DNA of 29,339 bases. Source: a virus. The stretch lies in IMG/VR virus record IMGVR_UViG_3300022222_000011, positions 1 to 29,339 of that record; one strand, 5' to 3'. Positions 1,128 through 18,328 of this stretch are shown piece after piece (the stretch's first letter is position 1; each line of letters opens with the position of its first letter). The notes beneath the pieces are model-generated. The model was not told the DNA's origin and made no database searches. It saw only the letters and a list, made by a program, of their open reading frames with translations. The translations under genes were made by a program, and so were the position numbers.

Positions 1128-2576
1128 ATGGAACTAAAAGCTGACCCATTCTTATCTCTTCCTCGCTTAGAGGAATTGATGCTCAAGACCGATCTCGGTT
1201 TCTTCGCCGAGGAAATGCTCGGCATTGAGATCTCCGATCACCACACTGAATGGTCTACCCTTGTCGCGAGACATCCCAGGCTCGCAATCGAAGCGCCCAG
1301 AGATCACGGCAAAAGTTTCTTTTTCTCATTCGCCTACGCAATCTGGCGATCCTACTACGCTTGGATACCGCCGATCCTCTACTCCGGTTTCAAGTCCATC
1401 CCCAAGATCTCGATGGGCTACATTTTTTCCAATACGCAGGATCAGGCGATTAAATTTCTAGAAATTATTCGTAACGAATTGGAAATGAATCCCAAGCTCC
1501 AGCATCTTGTCCCTGAGAAGAAAGATAATAACTGGAACAAGACCGAAATGCGGCTTTCCAATCGTGCAGTCCTTCGCGCGCGCGGTTGGGGGACATCGGT
1601 TCGAGGTGCGCATCCTTGCTGGGCGATTTGCGACGACGTACTAAACGACGAATCCATTTACTCTGAGATCACTAGGAAGAAACAGGTGGACTACTTCTTC
1701 TCGGCGGTCACTCCCATGATCGTGCCCGGCGGGCAGATCGTTGTGATCGGAACGCCCTTCCACGGGGAAGATCTCTACCAAAAACTTTCAGAAAATAAAT
1801 CCTACGTTTTCAAAAAGTATCCCGCACTCGACGCTTACGACCGTCCACTGTGGCCCACACGCTATACGAAGGAACATCTGCACTCGAAGCGGGACGAAGT
1901 GGGCTCGACCCGTTTCGCGAGAGAGTATCTCTGCGAGCCCGTGTCCGACGAGTCGAGTTTATTCCCTGAGAAGATCATCGCGGACTGCTACGACTTTCAG
2001 TACGAAATGCCCACGCACCTCACGCCCGAGGACAGAAAAAACCTCATGGTATTTACCGGCGTGGATCTCGCGCTCTCTTCGACCGTGGGCGCGGACTATA
2101 CGGTGATCACGACGCTTGGCGTTGATAAATTTAAAAACCGTTGGCTCTTGGACATCCGGCGCAAGAAGGGCCTCTCGATGACCGAACAGCTTCGCGAGAT
2201 TGAGGATGTCTACGTCAACTATCGTCCATTGAAAGTGTTGATCGAGGACAATGGTTTTCAGCGCGTATTCCGCGACGAGTTGGTGAAGAATACCGACATT
2301 CCGGTCGAGGGGTTCACTACGACGGCGCAGAATAAAAATAGCCTTGAGAAAGGCGTGCCGTCGCTTCAGATCTTATTTGAGAATAAAAAGTTTGTGATAC
2401 CACGCAAGACAGAGAGAGACAGGCGCATCACGGATTTTCTCATAAACGAGTTGAAGTGTTTCACTTGGCAGGATGGTAAGCTTCAGGGCTTGGGGGCTCA
2501 CGACGATTGCGTTATGTCACTCTGGATCGCATCGGAAGCGTGCAGCGCCTATCAATTTTCGTTTTCATTTGTGTAG
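1128..2576 (+). CDS. terL: Terminase large subunit (ATPase and nuclease)
   Basis: This is the DNA-packaging motor: an N-terminal ATPase pumps DNA into the prohead and a C-terminal RNase H-fold nuclease cuts the concatemer. At 482 residues it has the usual TerL length. A Walker A-like loop APRDHGKS is at residues 56-63. A Walker B-type stretch WAICDD is at 165-170, and a coupling motif VVIGTPFHG at 205-213. The nuclease acidic residues fit D313 (GVDLALS), E373/D374 (LIEDNGF) and D459/D460 (GAHDDC). The start has only a weak AGG four bases upstream, within a short repeat of ATTAGGT. No small terminase subunit is recognisable nearby; it may lie upstream of the window. The call is firm on family motifs and on the portal downstream. 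Confidence 0.95.
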   Translation: MELKADPFLSLPRLEELMLKTDLGFFAEEMLGIEISDHHTEWSTLVARHPRLAIEAPRDHGKSFFFSFAYAIWRSYYAWIPPILYSGFKSIPKISMGYIFSNTQDQAIKFLEIIRNELEMNPKLQHLVPEKKDNNWNKTEMRLSNRAVLRARGWGTSVRGAHPCWAICDDVLNDESIYSEITRKKQVDYFFSAVTPMIVPGGQIVVIGTPFHGEDLYQKLSENKSYVFKKYPALDAYDRPLWPTRYTKEHLHSKRDEVGSTRFAREYLCEPVSDESSLFPEKIIADCYDFQYEMPTHLTPEDRKNLMVFTGVDLALSSTVGADYTVITTLGVDKFKNRWLLDIRRKKGLSMTEQLREIEDVYVNYRPLKVLIEDNGFQRVFRDELVKNTDIPVEGFTTTAQNKNSLEKGVPSLQILFENKKFVIPRKTERDRRITDFLINELKCFTWQDGKLQGLGAHDDCVMSLWIASEACSAYQFSFSFV

Positions 2577-2585
2577 GGGGGTTTC

Positions 2586-3029
2586 ATGGAAAAGTTTTTA
2601 ATGAATCGACTGGCTAACTGTGGCAACAGCTTTCAGGGCAAGACGAAGCGCGTGCTCTGTGTTTGCTCGGCGGGACTGCTTCGGTCTCCCACGGCAGCGG
2701 AAGTGCTCTCGCGCGAGCCTTTCCACTACAACACGCGTGCAGCGGGCCTTTGCTCGGAGTTCGCGCTGATTCCGGTCGACGAAGTGCTTTTAGAATGGGC
2801 CGACGAGATCGTGTGCATGGAGGAAAGTCAGATCCACACATTACAGGAGCGCGTGAAGGCGAGTCGCACGACCATAAGGGATCTCAAGATTATCTGTCTT
2901 ATGATTGAGGACAGCTTCCCGTTCCGCGATCCGGAGCTACAAAAAATGATTAAGGAAAATTATTTGCGTGCTGCCGGAATAGACACCGAAGTCCGCACGG
3001 CGGGTTTGGCACAAAGGGAGGAAGTATGA
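2586..3029 (+). CDS. Low-molecular-weight protein-tyrosine-phosphatase-like protein (COG4551-like)
   Basis: The product has 147 residues. A phosphate-binding loop CSAGLLRS sits at residues 27-34, with the CX5R spacing of tyrosine phosphatases and strand VLCVCSA before it. Further on, WADEIVCMEES and FRDPELQKMI match the order of conserved segments I recall for the small predicted phosphatases of COG4551. Cys27 would be the nucleophile and Arg33 the phosphate binder. The terminal 25 residues do not belong to the core. It follows the terminase by 9 bases and overlaps the next gene by 4. The fold assignment is good. Substrate and activity are unknown; it might bind nucleotides or phospho-ligands rather than act on proteins. 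Confidence 0.75.
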   Translation: MEKFLMNRLANCGNSFQGKTKRVLCVCSAGLLRSPTAAEVLSREPFHYNTRAAGLCSEFALIPVDEVLLEWADEIVCMEESQIHTLQERVKASRTTIRDLKIICLMIEDSFPFRDPELQKMIKENYLRAAGIDTEVRTAGLAQREEV

Positions 3030-3211
3030 ATGGAAATAAATGGGCGATTGAAGTCTTGAAGCTGGAAGGCTTGAGCGAGGAATTAGACATCGCTGAGATC
3101 AAAGAAGTCCTAAAGTGTGCGGTGGAAGTTTTGAAGCGAGGGCCGGTAAGCTACCGTGGTGCGACCGTTCGGTACATCCCAAAGGCTAAAAAATCCGCGA
3201 AGGCACGATGA
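3026..3211 (+). CDS. Small hypothetical protein
   Basis: The product has 61 residues and is not recognised. It is predicted mainly helical in the first 40 residues (LEGLSEELDIAEIKEVL, then CAVEVLKRG) with a basic tail (PKAKKSAKAR). The ATG overlaps the phosphatase-like gene's stop as ATGA and is preceded by GGGAGGA, a strong ribosome site, so the gene is very likely translated and coupled. Its own stop overlaps the next start by the same ATGA arrangement. It could be a small adaptor or nucleic-acid-binding peptide, but nothing shows this directly. Confidence 0.65.
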   Translation: MNGNKWAIEVLKLEGLSEELDIAEIKEVLKCAVEVLKRGPVSYRGATVRYIPKAKKSAKAR

Positions 3212-3822
3212 CACTCAACCTCGGCACGATCAGTCACGGGATTAAAGAGCGAAAGAAGATTGCAGATTTTTACCCTTCGCCTCCTCATGTGACCGAGGCG
3301 CTAATGCGACGGGAGAAATTCGAGGGCCTGATCTGGGAATGCGCGAGTGGGGCGGGAGACATTTCTCGCGTGTTGGAACGAACCAACCCGGTCTTTTCGA
3401 GCGACATTCGTAAAGAGCCCGAGGTGTACGGGCGAAAGGGGATGAATTTCCTACTTTCCAATCGGGACAAAGTTCCCAACATCGTCACCAATCCGCCTTT
3501 CATGAAGGCGGTCGATTTTGTGATTCATGCGAAGCGTCGAGCGGATAAGAAAATTGCGATGCTTTTGCCTTTGGCGTTTCTCGAAGGGCGCGAAAGATTT
3601 GTCGAACGGATCTTTAATCACTCGGCATTTCCGCTGAAGAAAGTATACGTTTTCTGCAAGCGGCCAGAGTTCAAGCGTGGTGGGGTGAGCGGCGATAATG
3701 GAATGATGGTTGGAATTGCGTGGTTTGTTTGGGAGAAGGGGTGGACGGAAGCGCCGACCGTAGGTTGGATTCCGCCGGACGAGGGGATGAAAATTGCGGG
3801 GAAGAGGAGAAGGAAGAAGTGA
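3208..3822 (+). CDS. DNA adenine methyltransferase-like protein
   Basis: The 204-residue product resembles small phage N6-adenine methyltransferase-fold proteins. The segment IWECASGAGDISRVL (about residues 48-62) fits the S-adenosylmethionine-binding motif I. SSDIRKEP, a little further on, fits the acidic second strand. TNPPF (about 95-99) is the NPPF/Y catalytic motif IV. The N-terminal FYPSPPHVTEAL is typical of such phage proteins. The C-terminus is basic (GKRRRKK). No separate target-recognition domain is apparent, as in many short phage enzymes. It overlaps its neighbours by 4 bases on both sides. Likely role: methylating phage DNA against host restriction, or an enzyme-like relic. The recognition sequence cannot be inferred. 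Confidence 0.75.
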   Translation: MTLNLGTISHGIKERKKIADFYPSPPHVTEALMRREKFEGLIWECASGAGDISRVLERTNPVFSSDIRKEPEVYGRKGMNFLLSNRDKVPNIVTNPPFMKAVDFVIHAKRRADKKIAMLLPLAFLEGRERFVERIFNHSAFPLKKVYVFCKRPEFKRGGVSGDNGMMVGIAWFVWEKGWTEAPTVGWIPPDEGMKIAGKRRRKK

Positions 3823-3959
3823 CAAAGAAAATGAGCGCGCAAGACAAAGCCGATGTGAAACTTGCTGTCAAAAGATTGGCGTCAATTGACGAATCGAATC
3901 CTTTCAAACGCACGATCCCCTGGAAACAGGTAAAGAGCCGGTTGAAGAAGAAAAGGTAA
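3819..3959 (+). CDS. Small basic hypothetical protein
   Basis: A 46-codon frame starts at GTG, overlapping the methylase stop as GTGA, after a purine-rich GAGGAGAAGGAAGAA stretch that offers a ribosome site. An internal ATG (3831) is an alternative start. The product is strongly basic, with KQVKSRLKKKR at its end and a central segment SIDESNPFKRTIPWK. The segment resembles small Arc/antitoxin-adjacent or toxin-linked phage peptides only loosely, so no family is claimed. An in-frame extension upstream to 3720 would overlap the methylase gene by about 100 bases and is unlikely. Confidence 0.5.
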   Translation: MTKKMSAQDKADVKLAVKRLASIDESNPFKRTIPWKQVKSRLKKKR

Positions 3960-3976
3960 GACTGTAAAATAAAAGG

Positions 3977-4237
3977 ATGGGCCACGACGAATTCATCGAA
4001 AGGGCCTTCCAATATCTCAACCGACATCTTGATCCTGACATAAAGAGAAAACTTCCGCCCGGCGTCACGAGAGAAATTCTGCGATGCCTGTCGGTGTGGA
4101 TTCTGCAAAAAGGTTTTTCGGAGCGAATAGCGGAGAAGGGTGAACCGCCCGGCGGTTTAAGTTACCAGGATTTTAGTGACATGATTGATGAGACGAATGC
4201 GCGAAAGCGTTTGAAACGGACCAGCAATCCTGATTAA
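3977..4237 (+). CDS. Small hypothetical protein
   Basis: The product has 86 residues with alternating helix-like segments (DEFIERAFQYLNRHL, TREILRCLSVWILQKGF, YQDFSDMIDETNARKRL) and an acidic/basic mix. It is not recognised. The AAAAGG directly before the ATG is too close for a normal ribosome site, so initiation may be weak or may depend on the preceding gene, which stops 17 bases upstream. It lies between the small basic gene and the cold-shock gene in the accessory block. Confidence 0.55.
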   Translation: MGHDEFIERAFQYLNRHLDPDIKRKLPPGVTREILRCLSVWILQKGFSERIAEKGEPPGGLSYQDFSDMIDETNARKRLKRTSNPD

Positions 4238-4837: not shown

Positions 4838-5532
4838 ACAAGGAAATAGTGCGATGGATCAAGATCGTGGTTCTCACGACCTTGCGGGAGAAGAACCTCG
4901 CGAAGATGGACATTCCCACGCTTATCTCTTGCGGGATGCTGGGGTATGCCCAAGCACTGAAGCGTTACGATCCCACGAGGGGAGTGAAGTTCAAGACGTT
5001 CGCGGAGTATCGGATCAAGGGCGCGGTCTTAGACGAGGTGCGCAAGATGATCGGGGACGAGCGGTGCAAGAATCCGCGACCGAGACGCATTGAGGACTTC
5101 AACTACGATCTGATCTCAGATAACGGCCACACGCAATCCACGATTGAATCCCTCCTCGACTTTGAAACCTTCCTCAACTTAGTTCCCCTGACCGAGCGTG
5201 AATTAAAGATCTTGGACTGCCGGATCAACGGGATGAATCTGCGTGAGATTGCACGCCAATTTAACTTCTCCGAATCGCGCGCCTCGCAACTTCTTGCGAA
5301 AATAAAGAAGATCATCTTCGTCTGGTATCGAGAAGAAATGGGTTTGAAATTTGGTTTAATCATCCGTCTTTGCCCTTCCTGTAATAATGAGAACTGTCTC
5401 TCCGATAAGATCCAGGAATTCCGCTGTGATATATGCGACGTGCCACTTATCATGGTCGAGGGCGTGCCGGTCTTAACTCAGTCTGAAAGTGAATCGAATG
5501 ATGGATATTCTCGAAACCGCGTCTATTCTTGA
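4834..5532 (+). CDS. Phage sigma-70-family factor (FliA/WhiG-like) with C-terminal zinc ribbon
   Basis: The 232-residue protein starts at an ATG overlapping the upstream stop as ATGA. Residues about 28-72 are a region 2: YDPTRGVKFKTFAEYRIKGA at 45-64, then VLDEVRK. This is very close to the region 2.3-2.4 signature of FliA/SigD/WhiG factors. Residues 119-161 are region 4, with LTERELKILDCRINGMNLRE and a helix-turn-helix FSESRASQLLAKIKK. The stretch between is short, so region 3 seems reduced or missing. The tail adds a C2-C2 zinc ribbon with C180, C183, C198 and C201, unusual for this class. It would bind host RNA polymerase core and redirect it to phage promoters; a matching candidate lies at 16626. 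It has no visible anti-sigma partner. Confidence 0.9.
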   Translation: MNKEIVRWIKIVVLTTLREKNLAKMDIPTLISCGMLGYAQALKRYDPTRGVKFKTFAEYRIKGAVLDEVRKMIGDERCKNPRPRRIEDFNYDLISDNGHTQSTIESLLDFETFLNLVPLTERELKILDCRINGMNLREIARQFNFSESRASQLLAKIKKIIFVWYREEMGLKFGLIIRLCPSCNNENCLSDKIQEFRCDICDVPLIMVEGVPVLTQSESESNDGYSRNRVYS

Positions 5533-7543
5533 CGAGCATATTGAAAAGGCGGCGAAGAAAGCCTTTCTCGAAAAGGGCGTAACCTTCGATCCGTCGAACC
5601 CGCATTTGATGGGCGGTGATTCCAGTTACTACTCCCCCTATCTCGAACTCGCAGACGGCGGCTTCGTGCCGTTTCCGGTCCAGCATTGGAAGGATCAGGG
5701 CAGGGACGAGAACGCTTATAACACGACGCGACAATTCTACCAGGACGCTGGCGAGCGCTTCAAGCCGGTGGAAGAGGCCGTGCGCGCATTTCGTGGCTTC
5801 GGCAAGTCTATCGACACGCTCTTTAAAGCGCTCCCCGTGCCCATAGGAACGATCCACACCTACGCCGATGGGGTGAAGTACAAAAAGATGAAAGAGGGCC
5901 AGTGGCTCCCGGTCAGATCGCCAAATACGCCCGCGTTTGATCATCCCAGCGAAGGCAAACGTAAGAAGGCGAGTCTTGAGATCGATACTCATGCGCAAAA
6001 GGTGAAGGCAATTCAGGACGAGCAGAAAAAGCGCAAGGAAACGCACGCGCTCGTCCATACGACCAAGAAGGAAGTCCTTCGCCACGTTCGCACGGCTCTC
6101 GGCAAAACAATTCCGCCCGAGGCAAAACAGCATTTCGATCTTAGACGTCGCACTCCCGGCTCGCAGGCAAAGACTGCGGCCACGAAAACTAAAGCAGGCG
6201 AGGACGATGGGAAGGCTGCGACCGTACTCGCAGGGCTACAGGAAAAGGTTAAGCGTTTAGGAAAAGGGGAAGGCCGAGAAGTGAAACTCGCAGAGGCGGA
6301 AGTGAAAACACTTCTCGAATCTGGGAAGTACGCGCTTATTTCGGCGGGGAAGAATCCGGCGAATCGTGAAGACCGCAAGATGTCGCAAGCCGACATCAAG
6401 GCTCGTTACGCTTTGCTGCGAAGAGATTTGGTTTCGGACGGTTTCGCATTCTCGAAGGTGAAGGGTCACTATCAGGGCACCGAGGACAGTTTCTTAGTAA
6501 TGGTCCACGATGCCGACAAGGAACACATCAAAAGTCTGGGCAAAAAATATAAGCAGGATTCGGTGATCTATTCCGAGGGCGGGAAGCACGAACTGCATTA
6601 CACGACCGGGAATGACAAACTTGTGGGCGAGGACGGTGAGACGATGAAGTCCACGTCCGAGCAGTACATGGAGGGCGAGCCCCCGCCTCCGCATTACGTT
6701 CCCGAGAGAAAAGAATTACACAATAAAATTATAAAAAATTTTTTGAGTAAAACCCAGAAGGCGACCGGCAAACCTGTGGCGGTGATTACTGGCGGAGGAA
6801 GTGGTTCGGGAAAATCTACCGTCATTAAGCATATGATGGGACAGGGCGGTCTTGGAAAAGACTTGGTCCATGTCGATGCTGACGAGATCAAGAAACATAT
6901 TCCCGAGTATCAAGAAGGCGTTGCCAAGAAGGACGAAAAGACTGCCGCTTTTGTCCACGACGAATCCTCGCACGTTACGTCGGAAATGATTAACCAGTCG
7001 GTCAAAGACGGGAAAAATTTTCTTTACGATTCTACTTTTTCCAACACTGCAAAATTTGAAAAGCTGATCGGGCATCTAAAGTCCAACGGCTATCACGTCC
7101 ACATTGTTTACGCAGACCTCCCGCCTGAAGAGGCGGAGAAGAGAGCGACCCAACGTGCGGCGAAGTCTGGCAGGAAAGTCCCTACGGACACGATTCGCTC
7201 CACGCATAAAAATGCGCTGAACTCTCTCAACAAGCTGCACCATCTGGCGGACAGCGTTTCGGTTTATTCCACGATGGGCGAGCCGAAACGAGTGTATCAT
7301 CGTGAGCCTGGGGCAAAAGAAGTGGACGATCAGGGGATGCAGGAAATGCGTAAGCGCGGACATTTGATCAAATCCGAAGCCGGTGACGGCGAGGACGAGG
7401 GAACGCCAATGGGCGGAGAAAAAGATTTGCTCGATAAGATCGACACAGCCTTCCGGTCGGGCAAGTCCGGTGACGAAGAAATTTCGGACGTTGTTGATGA
7501 AGGCGTGTCGTATGACGAATATCCCGGTGGGGAAAAATCTTAA
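5498..7543 (+). CDS. Polyvalent-type protein with zeta-toxin-family kinase domain
   Basis: The 681-residue multidomain protein may start at ATG 5498 (weak GAAAG 8 bases upstream), GTG 5489 or ATG 5501; it overlaps the sigma gene. Residues 122-143 hold the YKDG-style module GVKYKKMKEGQWLPV, followed by a long charged helical region. Residues about 262-370 (LLESGKYALISAGKNP...EDSFLVMV...GKKYKQDSVIYSE) resemble a DUF3293-like domain. Residues about 400-610 are a zeta-toxin-family P-loop kinase: Walker A GGGSGSGKST at 432-441, then HVDADEIKKHIPEY and FLYDSTFSN. Family members phosphorylate UDP-N-acetylglucosamine or related small molecules. No epsilon antitoxin is seen. Position before the portal fits proteins injected with phage DNA, an inference from polyvalent-protein literature. 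Confidence 0.82.
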   Translation: MMDILETASILDEHIEKAAKKAFLEKGVTFDPSNPHLMGGDSSYYSPYLELADGGFVPFPVQHWKDQGRDENAYNTTRQFYQDAGERFKPVEEAVRAFRGFGKSIDTLFKALPVPIGTIHTYADGVKYKKMKEGQWLPVRSPNTPAFDHPSEGKRKKASLEIDTHAQKVKAIQDEQKKRKETHALVHTTKKEVLRHVRTALGKTIPPEAKQHFDLRRRTPGSQAKTAATKTKAGEDDGKAATVLAGLQEKVKRLGKGEGREVKLAEAEVKTLLESGKYALISAGKNPANREDRKMSQADIKARYALLRRDLVSDGFAFSKVKGHYQGTEDSFLVMVHDADKEHIKSLGKKYKQDSVIYSEGGKHELHYTTGNDKLVGEDGETMKSTSEQYMEGEPPPPHYVPERKELHNKIIKNFLSKTQKATGKPVAVITGGGSGSGKSTVIKHMMGQGGLGKDLVHVDADEIKKHIPEYQEGVAKKDEKTAAFVHDESSHVTSEMINQSVKDGKNFLYDSTFSNTAKFEKLIGHLKSNGYHVHIVYADLPPEEAEKRATQRAAKSGRKVPTDTIRSTHKNALNSLNKLHHLADSVSVYSTMGEPKRVYHREPGAKEVDDQGMQEMRKRGHLIKSEAGDGEDEGTPMGGEKDLLDKIDTAFRSGKSGDEEISDVVDEGVSYDEYPGGEKS

Positions 7544-10632: not shown

Positions 10633-10838
10633 AAGTCCAGATTCTCGCCGATTCGCAGGAGGAGTTTGACGCGAAGAGGTCTGTGTTGGTGAGGGCGCTT
10701 TCCCGTTCGGGGAATATCCCCACCGAAGCGCGTAAGCCGCACTTTAAAGCGCAGGGCGAAGTGAACCAAATGTGGGACGAGAAATTTAAACAGATGCTTG
10801 AAGAGATCAAACGAGAAATAGATGAAATTATCAAGTGA
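10629..10838 (+). CDS. Small hypothetical protein
   Basis: The 69-residue product starts with an ATG overlapping the portal stop (ATGA) and ends inside the next gene. It reads MKVQILADSQEEFDAKRSVL, then a basic middle, then a charged helix KFKQMLEEIKREIDEIIK. No family is recognised. Overlap at both ends suggests translational coupling with the portal and the Nudix protein. Confidence 0.6.
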   Translation: MKVQILADSQEEFDAKRSVLVRALSRSGNIPTEARKPHFKAQGEVNQMWDEKFKQMLEEIKREIDEIIK

Positions 10839-13275
10839 GTTTCTATTCATTGATCTCGCAAAGGACGACGTAGCGTCGGTCGCCGTGCGCAACGGCACGA
10901 AACTTCTCATGGGCAAAAGGAGAGATAATGAACGCTACACTCTTCCTGGCGGACATTTTGAGGACGGTGAGGATAAGTTTGAAGCTGCCGCGAGGGAACT
11001 CAAGGAGGAATCGGGTATTGAGGTGGAAAAGAAAGATCTCAAACACCTGGGCACTGAGAATGTCACGACGTTCACCGGAAAAAAGAAAACCATTCATGCC
11101 TTTGTGATCGATCACAGCGGGCCGACTTCGGTAAAGAACGATCCGGATAAAGAAGTTTACCGCTGGAAGTGGGTGGAAACGAAAGACGGTCTTCCCGAAA
11201 AAATTGCGCAAAATTTACACTCTCCCAAAAACACCGTGCTTATGAAGCTGGGACTGCTCAAGAGTTTACAAGGATTTTACATTTCCCTGACAAAAGCTCG
11301 CCCGCACAAATATTTGCGTAAGTTTCGGCGCAATGGGAAGTGGGTTTATATCTACCACGAGGGTGAAACCCGCCGAGAGCTTTCCGAGCAGGCCGCTGGT
11401 CATCTTCACAAGCTCGCCGAAGTGGGCGACGAAGATGCGAAAGGGCTAATAGATAACGCCGAGGAAATGGACGAAAAGCATTTGAAGATCCTGCGCGCTC
11501 TGGCCGACTTGGGCGATAAGGAAGCGCACGGGCACCTAAAGAGCGTCGGCATTGATCGCGATCACGAGCGTAAGCATGAGGACACGATCACGCGACCGCT
11601 TCAGGGCGAGGATCAGGAGAAAGTTCTCTCTTCGATTAAGAGCATCGTCGAGACAGATCTGTTCCATTATTTGGAGCGCCACGCGGAAAGTCCCTACAAT
11701 AAGGGTTTGGTCACGAACGGGGTTACGAGAGCCTCGGTTATCTCGGCGCTGACTGGCAGTTCGGTAAAGGAAATGCTGGAAAATCTGCACGCGCAAATGG
11801 GGCGCGTAGACCGGGCGCACGCGGGATTGGCTCCGAGCCAGAATCAACCCGTGCGAGACGCTGGCGGCTACGGGTCAATGGTTTATAAAAAGGCGGTCAA
11901 GACCCTGGAGGGCGTGCAGCTATCGACCGGCAAGGCGCTTCCCGAGGGCTACTCCGAAGTCCACCGTCGCGGAGAGCGTTTTGTCCCTGCAAAGGAAATG
12001 CAGGAAGCGCGAGAGCGCCAAGTCCGAGAGCGTGCCGAGCGAGAGGCGCGAGAGAAGGTTGAGCGCGAAGCGCGTGAAGCGGTAGAACTCGCCGAAGTCG
12101 CGGGCTCAATGGCTCACTTCATGTCCTCGATCACAGAGCGCGGGCTCCCAATTGAGCAAACGAAGAAACTGCATCGGGCGCTGAAGAATATTTTTGGACA
12201 AAATTTACGCAAGGAACAGTGGCCGTATGATTTTTCGCAGCACGGCCTTACGACGAAGATCACCGATGTCCAATTTGGTAAGAGTTCGGTTTCGCTGAGT
12301 ATGCAGGTTTACGACGCCCAAGGGCGAGAGCTAATGGAAGGCTGGCGACGGCGCTGGAGCAGAGACGGCGGACGACCACACATCGAGAATTCCTACATGG
12401 GAGTGATGCGAAGTGCGCGCACGGGCGTTCAGATCGGGAACCTGATCAACTCTGGGCAGAGAGATTTGATGCGTTCGGTCCCTGGCGGCGGAGTGATTCA
12501 CGTTCACGCCAACATCGACGTGGGCGGTTACACCTGGGCGAATCAGGGTTTCAGTTTTGACGGTGGTCGCAGCAGCACACTCAATCATTGGCGACAGAGG
12601 CTTCAGCTTTTCGCAAGACAATACGGGGTGACGTTGAGCGATGCGGACCTCATGCACTTCACCGAGCCTTGCCACTTCGCAGCTTTTAACGACGGCAAAA
12701 GATATGTGATGAACGTCCACGACATGCCTCTCTCGCAAAAACAAATTGATACGAAGTCTCTTTCTGGCGTTGTGGGAGAGCATCCTCTTGAGCCGTCCGA
12801 AATTGCTAATAATCGGACGTCGCGCATGGCGGTCCATCTTGGGAAAAAATTCATGCTCAATACCGACTGGTATGGGACGTGGGATTCCAAGACCAATTCC
12901 GAAGCCTCGAAATTTGCCGATCAGTATTACCAGCTTCGAGAGCGCGCTTCCGAGCACTTGAGGCCGGAATATAAAGCTGTGCTCTCGCGTGTGGCGAGTG
13001 GCGTGAGAGCGCCCGCTCCTGTGGCGGCACCGGCTCCTGTGGCTCCGACGCCGCGAGGGAGTGGCAGCGACATGGTGGATCGTCACATCCGTTATTGGCA
13101 GCCGAGACAGCGTTACGGCGGGACAGCGCGGACTAATATGTCGATGACCGATTCGCGAATGCAAAGAGTTTTGTCGTGGCCGCGAACGGACATCAAAAAG
13201 TTTCTTGAGCACGCTCCTCTGACTCCGGCGGCGAAGAGACGGATCAGAGAGGCTATGACCGGGGCTCCCAGATGA
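10822..13275 (+). CDS. Nudix hydrolase fused to coiled-coil and GNAT-like region (polyvalent type)
   Basis: The 817-residue protein starts with a Nudix domain (about 1-145). Its Nudix box occupies residues 44-66, from GHFEDGE to RELKEESGI, and matches the GX5EX7REUXEEXGU pattern perfectly. Residues 162-177 (HKYLRKFRRNGKWVYI) repeat a module seen in two other large proteins here. Helical regions follow, with a strongly charged coiled coil at 392-428. The region from about 485 to 590, with SLSMQVYDAQGREL and VHANIDVGGYTWANQGF, resembles the last strands of GNAT-like domains in phage and plasmid polyvalent proteins. The C-terminus is Pro/Ala-rich, then basic. The substrate may be a nucleotide derivative; the multidomain form suggests a protein acting early in the host. 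Confidence 0.8.
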   Translation: MKLSSEFLFIDLAKDDVASVAVRNGTKLLMGKRRDNERYTLPGGHFEDGEDKFEAAARELKEESGIEVEKKDLKHLGTENVTTFTGKKKTIHAFVIDHSGPTSVKNDPDKEVYRWKWVETKDGLPEKIAQNLHSPKNTVLMKLGLLKSLQGFYISLTKARPHKYLRKFRRNGKWVYIYHEGETRRELSEQAAGHLHKLAEVGDEDAKGLIDNAEEMDEKHLKILRALADLGDKEAHGHLKSVGIDRDHERKHEDTITRPLQGEDQEKVLSSIKSIVETDLFHYLERHAESPYNKGLVTNGVTRASVISALTGSSVKEMLENLHAQMGRVDRAHAGLAPSQNQPVRDAGGYGSMVYKKAVKTLEGVQLSTGKALPEGYSEVHRRGERFVPAKEMQEARERQVRERAEREAREKVEREAREAVELAEVAGSMAHFMSSITERGLPIEQTKKLHRALKNIFGQNLRKEQWPYDFSQHGLTTKITDVQFGKSSVSLSMQVYDAQGRELMEGWRRRWSRDGGRPHIENSYMGVMRSARTGVQIGNLINSGQRDLMRSVPGGGVIHVHANIDVGGYTWANQGFSFDGGRSSTLNHWRQRLQLFARQYGVTLSDADLMHFTEPCHFAAFNDGKRYVMNVHDMPLSQKQIDTKSLSGVVGEHPLEPSEIANNRTSRMAVHLGKKFMLNTDWYGTWDSKTNSEASKFADQYYQLRERASEHLRPEYKAVLSRVASGVRAPAPVAAPAPVAPTPRGSGSDMVDRHIRYWQPRQRYGGTARTNMSMTDSRMQRVLSWPRTDIKKFLEHAPLTPAAKRRIREAMTGAPR

Positions 13276-16708: not shown

Positions 16709-18328
16709 ATGAAAAAATTCTTCATTTCCGAAGGCGACTTCCGCGTCTGGTTGCCCAATGTCCAATTCATAGAAAAGAGCGAGGACGACTACAACTCTCG
16801 TCGTCTGCGCGGAATTATGTCCACCCAGCGAATTGATCGCCAGGGTGAATCTGTCGTCGCCAAAGGTTTAGAGTTCGACGACTTCCTCCATCACGGTCAC
16901 TTCAACGACAATCACTCCCAAGAAACTTCCGCAATCGTCGGCTATCCCGAATCCGTTCAATACCATAAGAGCATGGAAGAATACGGCGGACCAAAATCCG
17001 AGGGCTGGACGTGTGAGGGTTTTGTGCTGAAGGGCACTAAACGCTCTGACGGAATTTGGGAACTCGCGAAGGCTCTCGCGGAAGTGCCGAATCGGAAGCT
17101 GGGCTTTTCCATTGAAGGGAAAGTCATTCGTCGCAATGACAAAACAATCGAGAAAGCCCGCATTCGTAATGTCGCGATCACCAACTGCCCGGTCAATACA
17201 GACTGTTTCCCTGGCGATGTGTCGGTGGTCGGAGCGGGTGAAAAGGTTTTTCAAAGGCTCTATTCAGGTCTTATGATCGAAGTGGTGCTTTCTACTGGCG
17301 AGAAGCTCACCGGAACACCGAATCACCCTGTACTCACGCAATTTGGCTGGGTGCCTCTTGGACAACTTGATAAAACGAGACACCGCATCGCCCGTTCTCT
17401 CGGTAACACTGTCTCCGCGTCTAGAATCTCCCGTGACGTAAATGACATGCCAGCCACACTTGAGGAGATATTTAACTTTACGAGCGTCATTCCGTCTAAT
17501 AAGCGGGTTTACTCCGCCAGAAAAGAGCAATTCCACGGCGACGGGACCAGTAGCGGCGATGTCAACATTGTACTTATCGATGGCAAATTGAAGAATCGTC
17601 TTGATACCGCGTTTTTCCAAAAGTTCGGCGAGGGTGCGTTCGTCGCGTCCCAGTTGGGAGAGAGAATCCTGCCTTACCAGAGCTTTTGTAATAAGCTCGG
17701 ATTTGGAAGCACGCTTGCTTCGTCGAACCCGATTCGCTCTTTTAGTGAGGAGTTTGCGCTGTCGGAGCGTGAGGTTCTTGTGTCGAACGGTCACGGCTTC
17801 ACTCATGGTTCGAATAGAAATTCCAGCATCTCTCACGATTCTGGCCACTGTTTTGTGAGTAATTCCAAACTTAGCGCCTACAGCGACCGTACTCTCTCCA
17901 TGCCGATAGGCTTCAGTGATATCTCTCGTAAGCGATCTTTCGGTTTTTCTGGTCATGTCTACAATCTTCAAACGGCACACGACTGGTATAGCGCCAACGG
18001 CATTATAGCACACAACTGCACTTGGGAAGTCCTGGACAAATCTTTTGCGTCTGAAGAGGTAGCAATGAAGTCAATGATGGCTGGTTACGGCGCGTCCCCC
18101 GGCACACAGACCGGCGGCGGCGCGATGCGCGGGGAATCTTTAGATTCCGACGAGAAAGTTTCTCAAGACGAGAAAAAGAAGAAGAGAGTGGCCGCTTTGA
18201 AAAAGGCACTTCTTTTCGACGATATGGAAAAGGCTATGGAAATAGTCTTGGATCGCCGTCCTGACATGGACGAAGAGGCGGCGGCTTATTTCGTAAACTA
18301 CTTATTTAAGAAGGGAGGAATGCTATGA
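16709..18328 (+). CDS. Prohead protease, interrupted by an in-frame intein
   Basis: The 539-codon gene encodes a precursor with two exteins around an intein (residues 166-436). The joined extein product is 268 residues, a normal prohead-protease size. N-extein segments LRGIMSTQRIDRQGESVV, FNDNHSQETSAIVG (with a His that may be catalytic) and LGFSIEGKVI fit S78-like proteases that trim scaffold and capsid. The intein splits the conserved NVAITNCPVNTD from CTWEVLDKSFAS. The C-extein ends in a Lys-rich segment and a helical tail (DRRPDMDEEAAAYFVNYLFK). It is followed by an ATGA-coupled small gene, a scaffold-like gene and the capsid gene, the usual neighbours. Splicing must occur for a working protease unless the split form functions. 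Confidence 0.87.
   Translation: MKKFFISEGDFRVWLPNVQFIEKSEDDYNSRRLRGIMSTQRIDRQGESVVAKGLEFDDFLHHGHFNDNHSQETSAIVGYPESVQYHKSMEEYGGPKSEGWTCEGFVLKGTKRSDGIWELAKALAEVPNRKLGFSIEGKVIRRNDKTIEKARIRNVAITNCPVNTDCFPGDVSVVGAGEKVFQRLYSGLMIEVVLSTGEKLTGTPNHPVLTQFGWVPLGQLDKTRHRIARSLGNTVSASRISRDVNDMPATLEEIFNFTSVIPSNKRVYSARKEQFHGDGTSSGDVNIVLIDGKLKNRLDTAFFQKFGEGAFVASQLGERILPYQSFCNKLGFGSTLASSNPIRSFSEEFALSEREVLVSNGHGFTHGSNRNSSISHDSGHCFVSNSKLSAYSDRTLSMPIGFSDISRKRSFGFSGHVYNLQTAHDWYSANGIIAHNCTWEVLDKSFASEEVAMKSMMAGYGASPGTQTGGGAMRGESLDSDEKVSQDEKKKKRVAALKKALLFDDMEKAMEIVLDRRPDMDEEAAAYFVNYLFKKGGML
17264..17956 (-). CDS. Antisense-encoded Vsr-like (EDxHD-type) homing endonuclease inside the intein
   Basis: A long frame on the minus strand lies wholly inside the intein DNA. 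From ATG 17956 it gives 230 residues; ATG 18013 gives 249. I prefer 17956 because a -10 element overlaps the upstream ATG and a weak GAAG lies nine bases before it. Numbered from 17956, residues about 12-45 form an HTH (ITEAYRHGESTVAVGAKFGI, then THKTVARIVRDAGIS), then a basic linker. The nuclease-like part has ERTLAELLEKRGIKTILQF (106-124), YNVDIAATGPVAVEL (129-143) with D132 and E142, and NDARKVKYLLKCGWHVIYV (156-174). This order fits Vsr-like phage homing endonucleases such as I-Bth0305I. The His of EDxHD is not obvious. It would cut intein-less alleles to drive homing. Confidence 0.82.
   Translation of the reverse strand: MTRKTERSLTRDITEAYRHGESTVAVGAKFGITHKTVARIVRDAGISIRTMSEAVTVRHKNLTLRQRKLLTKRANRVRRSKRASKSELITKALVRQDSLSQLGRDERTLAELLEKRGIKTILQFAIDKYNVDIAATGPVAVELLFSGGVNPLIRRNDARKVKYLLKCGWHVIYVTGDSRRGDSVTERTGDAVSRFIKLSKRHPAKLREYRVIRCSGELLASRKHHFDHKT
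18002..18010 (-). promoter_or_regulatory. Extended -10 promoter for the antisense endonuclease
   Basis: Read on the minus strand the sequence is TGCTATAAT, a perfect extended -10 element (TGnTATAAT). It overlaps the upstream ATG at 18013 and would start transcription near 17995, about 39 bases before ATG 17956. No good -35 box lies 17 bases upstream, which extended -10 promoters do not need. On the plus strand these bases encode Ile-Ile-Ala next to the terminal His-Asn of the intein. Confidence 0.5.

Follow-up and report, generated by a model that had tools for sequence, protein, structure and literature searches.

A phage capsid-assembly gene carries an intein with an antisense gene for a predicted Vsr-like, putatively homing, nuclease

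We have analysed a window of 29,339 nucleotides (the whole stretch of DNA examined, a virus record of 29.3 kb), which shows a myovirus-like gene order of terminase, portal, head maturation protease, scaffold, major head protein and tail sheath. Between the terminase and portal genes lies a 684-aa ORF (5489-7543) with a P-loop/polynucleotide-kinase-like C-terminal part, and between the portal and the protease lies an 817-aa ORF (10822-13275) with a NUDIX hydrolase-like N-terminus and no clear family for the rest. The head maturation (prohead) protease gene is located at 16709-18328 on the plus strand (539 aa), and its host part matches the PHROG 'head maturation protease' at E 9.2e-44. This gene is interrupted by a 271-aa intein at 17204-18016 (+), through which the plus-strand frame is open. 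The intein starts with Cys1, has T-P-N-H as block B (residues 38-41, 17315-17326 +), carries blocks F (GHVYNL) and G (IIAHN) in the C-terminal splicing region (17891-18016 +), ends with His270-Asn271, and is followed by Cys. It matches the intein models TIGR01445 and PF14890, though below their curated cut-offs, while the profile of the family matches solved inteins at E 1.7e-11. In the AlphaFold2 model, pLDDT is above 93 for residues 1-60 and above 87 for residues 230-271, and the top fold matches are all inteins, led by the Mtu RecA and GyrA inteins, at modest scores. On the other hand, the middle of the plus-strand product has no nuclease match and is predicted to be disordered at residues 152-219 (pLDDT below 50).

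On the minus strand, 17956-17264 is an open frame of 230 codons, starting with an ATG at 17956 opposite the block F His codon (CAT) and ending with a stop at 17264-17266. A GTG at 18013 would give 249 aa instead, but the ATG at 17956 is better supported, as it is the conserved start of the family with a conserved Shine-Dalgarno upstream. The minus codons lie exactly opposite plus codons (17264-17204 = 60), so that plus position 2 faces minus position 2. The original prediction, that the intein has all splicing residues and no in-frame endonuclease and that an HTH plus Vsr-like protein is encoded antisense within it, is confirmed for both sets of coordinates and supported for the family assignment.

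To see whether this layout is more than chance, we first estimated the number of antisense stops for the window alone, where about 5.7 were expected and none was seen, which is suggestive only. A tblastn search with the plus-strand intein found 107 phage records and one with the minus-strand protein found 126, largely the same phages and the same places (Salmonella, Gordonia, Klebsiella, Escherichia, Edwardsiella MSW-3, Haemophilus Aaphi23, Vibrio, Idiomarina). Pseudomonas/Vibrio phages that matched only the minus-strand protein are diverged inteins with the same antisense layout. In 19 of 20 inspected inteins, the in-register antisense frame is the single long open one (250-323 codons), while it is broken in one (locus L001). 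Scans of viral contigs with the single plus-strand intein and of bacterial genome contigs with the single antisense protein returned nothing, but pattern scans built on alignments of 3-4 members gave 160 more loci from IMG/VR and 5 more from bacterial genomes, with E-values that are relative to the candidate sets. Of 185 loci, 179 give complete inteins, every one with the nuclease antisense in the same register. The remainder, namely five truncated contigs and one locus (L100) with no intein found opposite, were not counted. Among the 179, 160 called starts are Cys, 176 end in Asn, 171 have Cys at +1, and none has a plus-strand stop. Over 142 distinct inteins there is 1 antisense stop in 34,158 codons, where 797 are expected from the Leu/Ser content and each gene's own extein codon usage, while the other frames have 2.4-5.9% stops. 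Chance is therefore excluded, and so is codon bias as the cause of the open frame.

ASCERTAINMENT. Because that set was found through the nuclease, a second set was chosen only by the 69-residue plus-strand N-terminal splicing region, which allowed us to ask whether the antisense frame is broken in homologous inteins while the plus-strand middle is conserved. All 80 inteins obtained in this way carry the nuclease in the same register. Only one of them, a 166-aa mini-intein (L206, 3001-3498), is visibly decayed, with 2 antisense stops and the start codon lost, and may be viewed as a natural loss-of-nuclease intermediate. In two others (L232 and L257), an apparent stop at codon 31 looks like the natural end of the nuclease. 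Within this intein lineage, the antisense gene is thus the rule. Notably, two inteins of this kind lie in the same host gene (L078 and L079 from IMG/VR, about 2444-3244 and 3386-4180), each with intein N- and C-terminal blocks and an antisense nuclease match. A search for sense-coded full-length relatives in about 670 bacterial genomes found only antisense-in-intein copies plus domain-only DUF559-like proteins.

We further examined which strand is under selection. Single-base codon differences between close pairs were classed as silent (S) or altering (N) on the plus and then the minus strand, and divided by opportunity. In 18 disjoint pairs, the exteins and the intein end beyond the nuclease start codon behave as plus-coding (SN.28, NS.02), the middle behaves as minus-coding (SN.07, NS.19, NN.02, SS.31), and the N-terminal splicing region is constrained on both strands (SN.16, NS.07). 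In a position-resolved version with 28 pairs, the NS:SN ratio is.07-.11 in the exteins,.19 in intein codons 0-19 (before the nuclease stop),.79 and.42 in codons 20-59 (over blocks A-B), 2.1-2.7 in codons 60-119, 3.5-4.9 in the core, 1.1 in the last 20 codons before the nuclease start,.07 past the start, and.08 in the downstream extein. That is, the switches coincide with the stop and start codons of the nuclease, and a pure shadow of plus-strand conservation cannot produce this pattern.

Some motifs are shared by the two strands. Block B, when read antisense, gives the V-I-R-C of the nuclease (family consensus VIRG), in a zone where both strands are constrained. In addition, a plus-strand F-H-G-D motif (intein residues 110-113, 17531-17542 +) lies exactly opposite the V-A-V-E of the nuclease, and both motifs are conserved. 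On the plus strand, D is kept in 128 of 136 inteins while the minus residue varies between Val and Ile (GTC 92, ATC 36), and H is kept in 113 of 136 with the Val codon GTG in 110, though GTG is only 20% of Val codons in the antisense core. Both strands thus appear to be conserved at the amino-acid level there, and FHGD is conserved beyond what the antisense VAVE requires. The decayed L206 still keeps FHGDG. Residues 80-130 of the intein are predicted with moderate confidence.

The minus-strand product is predicted to be an HTH plus Vsr-like nuclease of the PD-(D/E)XK superfamily. AlphaFold2 gives pLDDT 93 and pTM 0.77. In the fold comparison with VIA-align, the nearest folds are Vsr (Z 10.2 over 114 residues) and the homing endonuclease I-Bth0305I (Z 10.1 over 93), followed by Vsr again (9.7) and 3HRL (9.4), and Foldseek also puts I-Bth0305I first (E 1.3e-3, prob 1.00). 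The 12-member profile matches 3R3P, the I-Bth0305I catalytic domain, at E 6e-8 and 3HRL at 3e-6, and the 77-member profile matches 3HRL at 5e-8. A profile match to designed repeat proteins (8cwy, 8cws) covers only the helical HTH repeats and was disregarded. Pfam MTES_1575, a restriction-nuclease family, is found in 48 of 77 members (best 1.7e-8) and DUF559 in 16, and many HTH families are matched to 8e-12. However, the single-sequence Pfam hit of the window is weak (E 1e-3, below the curated cut-off), so the family assignment rests on relatives. The helix-turn-helix domain occupies aa 1-47 (17816-17956, minus strand) and resembles the DNA-binding domain of GcrA (Z 7.7), while the Vsr-like domain occupies aa 100-224 (17285-17659, minus strand). 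In 77 members, the acidic residues D132 and E142 are invariant and E106 is kept in at least 90%. Judged from the sequences alone, the classic His-Asp of 'EDxHD' is not evident in the window copy (LLFSGGVNP), although a 'GG.WH' histidine is seen in some members. Intein lengths fall into two classes, about 260-287 and 305-345 aa, which in the aligned members correspond to one versus two HTH units, and two 191-aa inteins (L083 and L097) have antisense products matching only the nuclease domain part of the model, with little or no HTH.

The start signals of the antisense gene appear to be embedded in intein block F. The start codon, antisense to the block F His, is ATG in 93 and GTG in 20 of 143. 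Among block F His codons, CAT (ATG in antisense) is used in 109 of 135, whereas the terminal splicing His is CAT in only 39 of 106. Likewise, the block F Leu codon is CTC in 88 of 107, against 22% of extein Leu, which makes an antisense GGAG(G) about 8 nt before the start, and an SD-like word is present in 94 of 107. As this stretch is not protein-coding on the minus strand, the codon choice is best explained by a ribosome-binding site. The window itself has CTT and thus the weaker GAAGA (17965-17969, minus strand), 8 nt upstream of the ATG, and no sigma-70-like promoter was seen on the minus strand near the start within the window.

The distribution of the element suggests mobility. The host gene of phage jersey matches 406 phage records, but only 58 cover most of it including the intein, and many others match in two pieces with the intein length missing. 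One empty allele (PQ035139.1) aligns without a gap across the joined flanks over 600 bp at 90%. Jersey (Salmonella) and Snoke (E. coli) are 76.7% alike in the extein but 95.7% in the intein, while the empty allele is 90% like jersey. Conversely, the loci L013 and L015 are 86.7% alike in the extein and 81.2% in the intein. Double coding slows divergence, but it does not explain ratios pointing both ways, whereas transfer does. Insertion is mostly before a CxC motif of Mu-F-like minor head proteins, but also in phage minor capsid protein 2 and in head proteases. A related intein (L107, 2441-3286 on the minus strand, 45% identical) sits in the same conserved motif of a head protease as that of the window but six residues upstream (VAITA|SPVNT versus CPVNTD|CTWEVL), which gives two insertion points in one motif.

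Based on the above analyses, we infer with high confidence, though from sequence and model evidence only, that this is a mobile intein in which splicing and mobility are encoded by two overlapping genes on opposite strands of the same DNA. The plus strand, read as part of the capsid-assembly gene, should give a HINT intein that excises itself and so restores the essential host protein. The minus strand, from its own ribosome-binding site and ATG/GTG, should give a separate HTH plus Vsr-like (I-Bth0305I-like) endonuclease, which is inferred to bind and cut the intein-less allele at the insertion site in a co-infecting phage genome, so that repair copies the intein in. Splicing of the intein, translation of the nuclease, its independent expression, its cleavage of the target and homing itself are all inferences. 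Compared with the original prediction, which described the arrangement in this one intein, we have found an intein lineage in many phages, and true dual coding, since the plus-strand splicing blocks and the extra FHGD motif are constrained too.

Other explanations seem unlikely. It could be argued that the antisense frame is only a shadow of a selected plus-strand intein, since in this register conserved plus codons do project conserved minus codons, and the N-terminal 60 codons are partly of this kind (NS:SN 0.4-0.8). Nevertheless, in the core, changes silent on the minus strand but altering the plus protein are 2-5 times more frequent than the reverse, opposite to the exteins, and this reading, already difficult to reconcile with the stop counts and with a well-folded predicted nuclease opposite a plus-strand region of very low pLDDT, is refuted by the strand switch. 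It is equally improbable that the nuclease is mostly a degenerate relic overlapped by the intein linker. A few members are decayed (L001, with an internal stop, and L206), but 186 of 188 distinct inteins lack an internal antisense stop, not counting the two at codon 31, and the invariant acidic residues and the minus-strand purifying selection also speak against decay. Somewhat less remote, but still unlikely, is a genuine nuclease that is not a homing endonuclease, for example one acting in phage-phage exclusion or genome processing that merely sits in the intein, as the function is inferred and Vsr-like and DUF559-like domains occur in other DNA enzymes. However, the nuclease is always confined inside an intein, its best homing relative is I-Bth0305I, and the element shows clean presence/absence and transfer between host-gene backgrounds.

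A further reading, which we regard as only slightly more probable than not, is that a whole intein lineage, spread over phages of many bacterial hosts, is built on obligatory sense-antisense dual coding, in which splicing protein and mobility nuclease occupy the same codons, block B (TPNH) is the last-strand 'VIRG' of the nuclease, the catalytic VAVE is the FHGD of the intein, and block F carries the start codon and ribosome-binding site of the nuclease. The plus-strand FHGD module may be a second function of the intein that the overlap created or preserved, so that mutations that kill the nuclease tend to damage the intein, slowing the usual decay of homing endonucleases.

This is an unusually well-documented case of two overlapping protein genes, both tied to known folds, that share most of about 270-330 codons on opposite strands in hundreds of divergent copies, and it offers a natural laboratory for how far sense-antisense dual coding can go (the Rodin-Ohno question) and for gene-overlap evolution. 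For inteins, it breaks the rule that the endonuclease is part of the intein protein: the nuclease could be expressed apart from the abundant capsid protein, it does not have to fold inside the splicing domain, and the overlap may protect it from the decay that ends most homing cycles. It also shows that many phage 'head morphogenesis' genes carry an unannotated enzyme gene. Intein-bearing head genes in phage records such as OQ507916.1 and MT677934.1 are annotated 'NAD+--asparagine ADP-ribosyltransferase' or 'hypothetical', and in the annotated regions inspected none names an antisense nuclease. In the open-access literature searched, which does not cover subscription journals and preprints, we found no earlier report of an antisense endonuclease in an intein, and a Jerseyvirus paper calls the gene an intein-containing capsid morphogenesis protein without mention of an antisense nuclease in the passages found.

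The element can be compared with several known systems. Conventional mobile inteins with a LAGLIDADG or HNH endonuclease (e.g. PI-SceI, PI-MtuI) share the HINT splicing domain, the selfish spread by a nuclease (here inferred) and the insertion at conserved motifs of essential genes, but there the endonuclease is in frame with the splicing domain at a conserved insertion site (PMC6801210), while here it is a separate protein encoded antisense over a median 91% of the intein codons. I-Bth0305I and Vsr-like/EDxHD homing endonucleases have a Vsr-like catalytic domain joined to DNA-binding modules and are phage-borne, but I-Bth0305I is a group I intron enzyme (PMC3943268), whereas the present family is antisense inside inteins and carries N-terminal HTH units. 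DUF559/MTES_1575 proteins belong to the same nuclease superfamily, but they are sense-coded with no intein opposite, and match only the nuclease domain. Antisense homing endonuclease genes are known in nuclear rDNA group I introns (e.g. Dsq.L2066, Dir.S956-2; PMC9548176), where the nuclease gene is likewise on the strand opposite to the splicing element; these are eukaryotic and of the His-Cys family, and the host is an RNA ribozyme with the gene in a peripheral loop, so that the DNA is not dual protein-coding.
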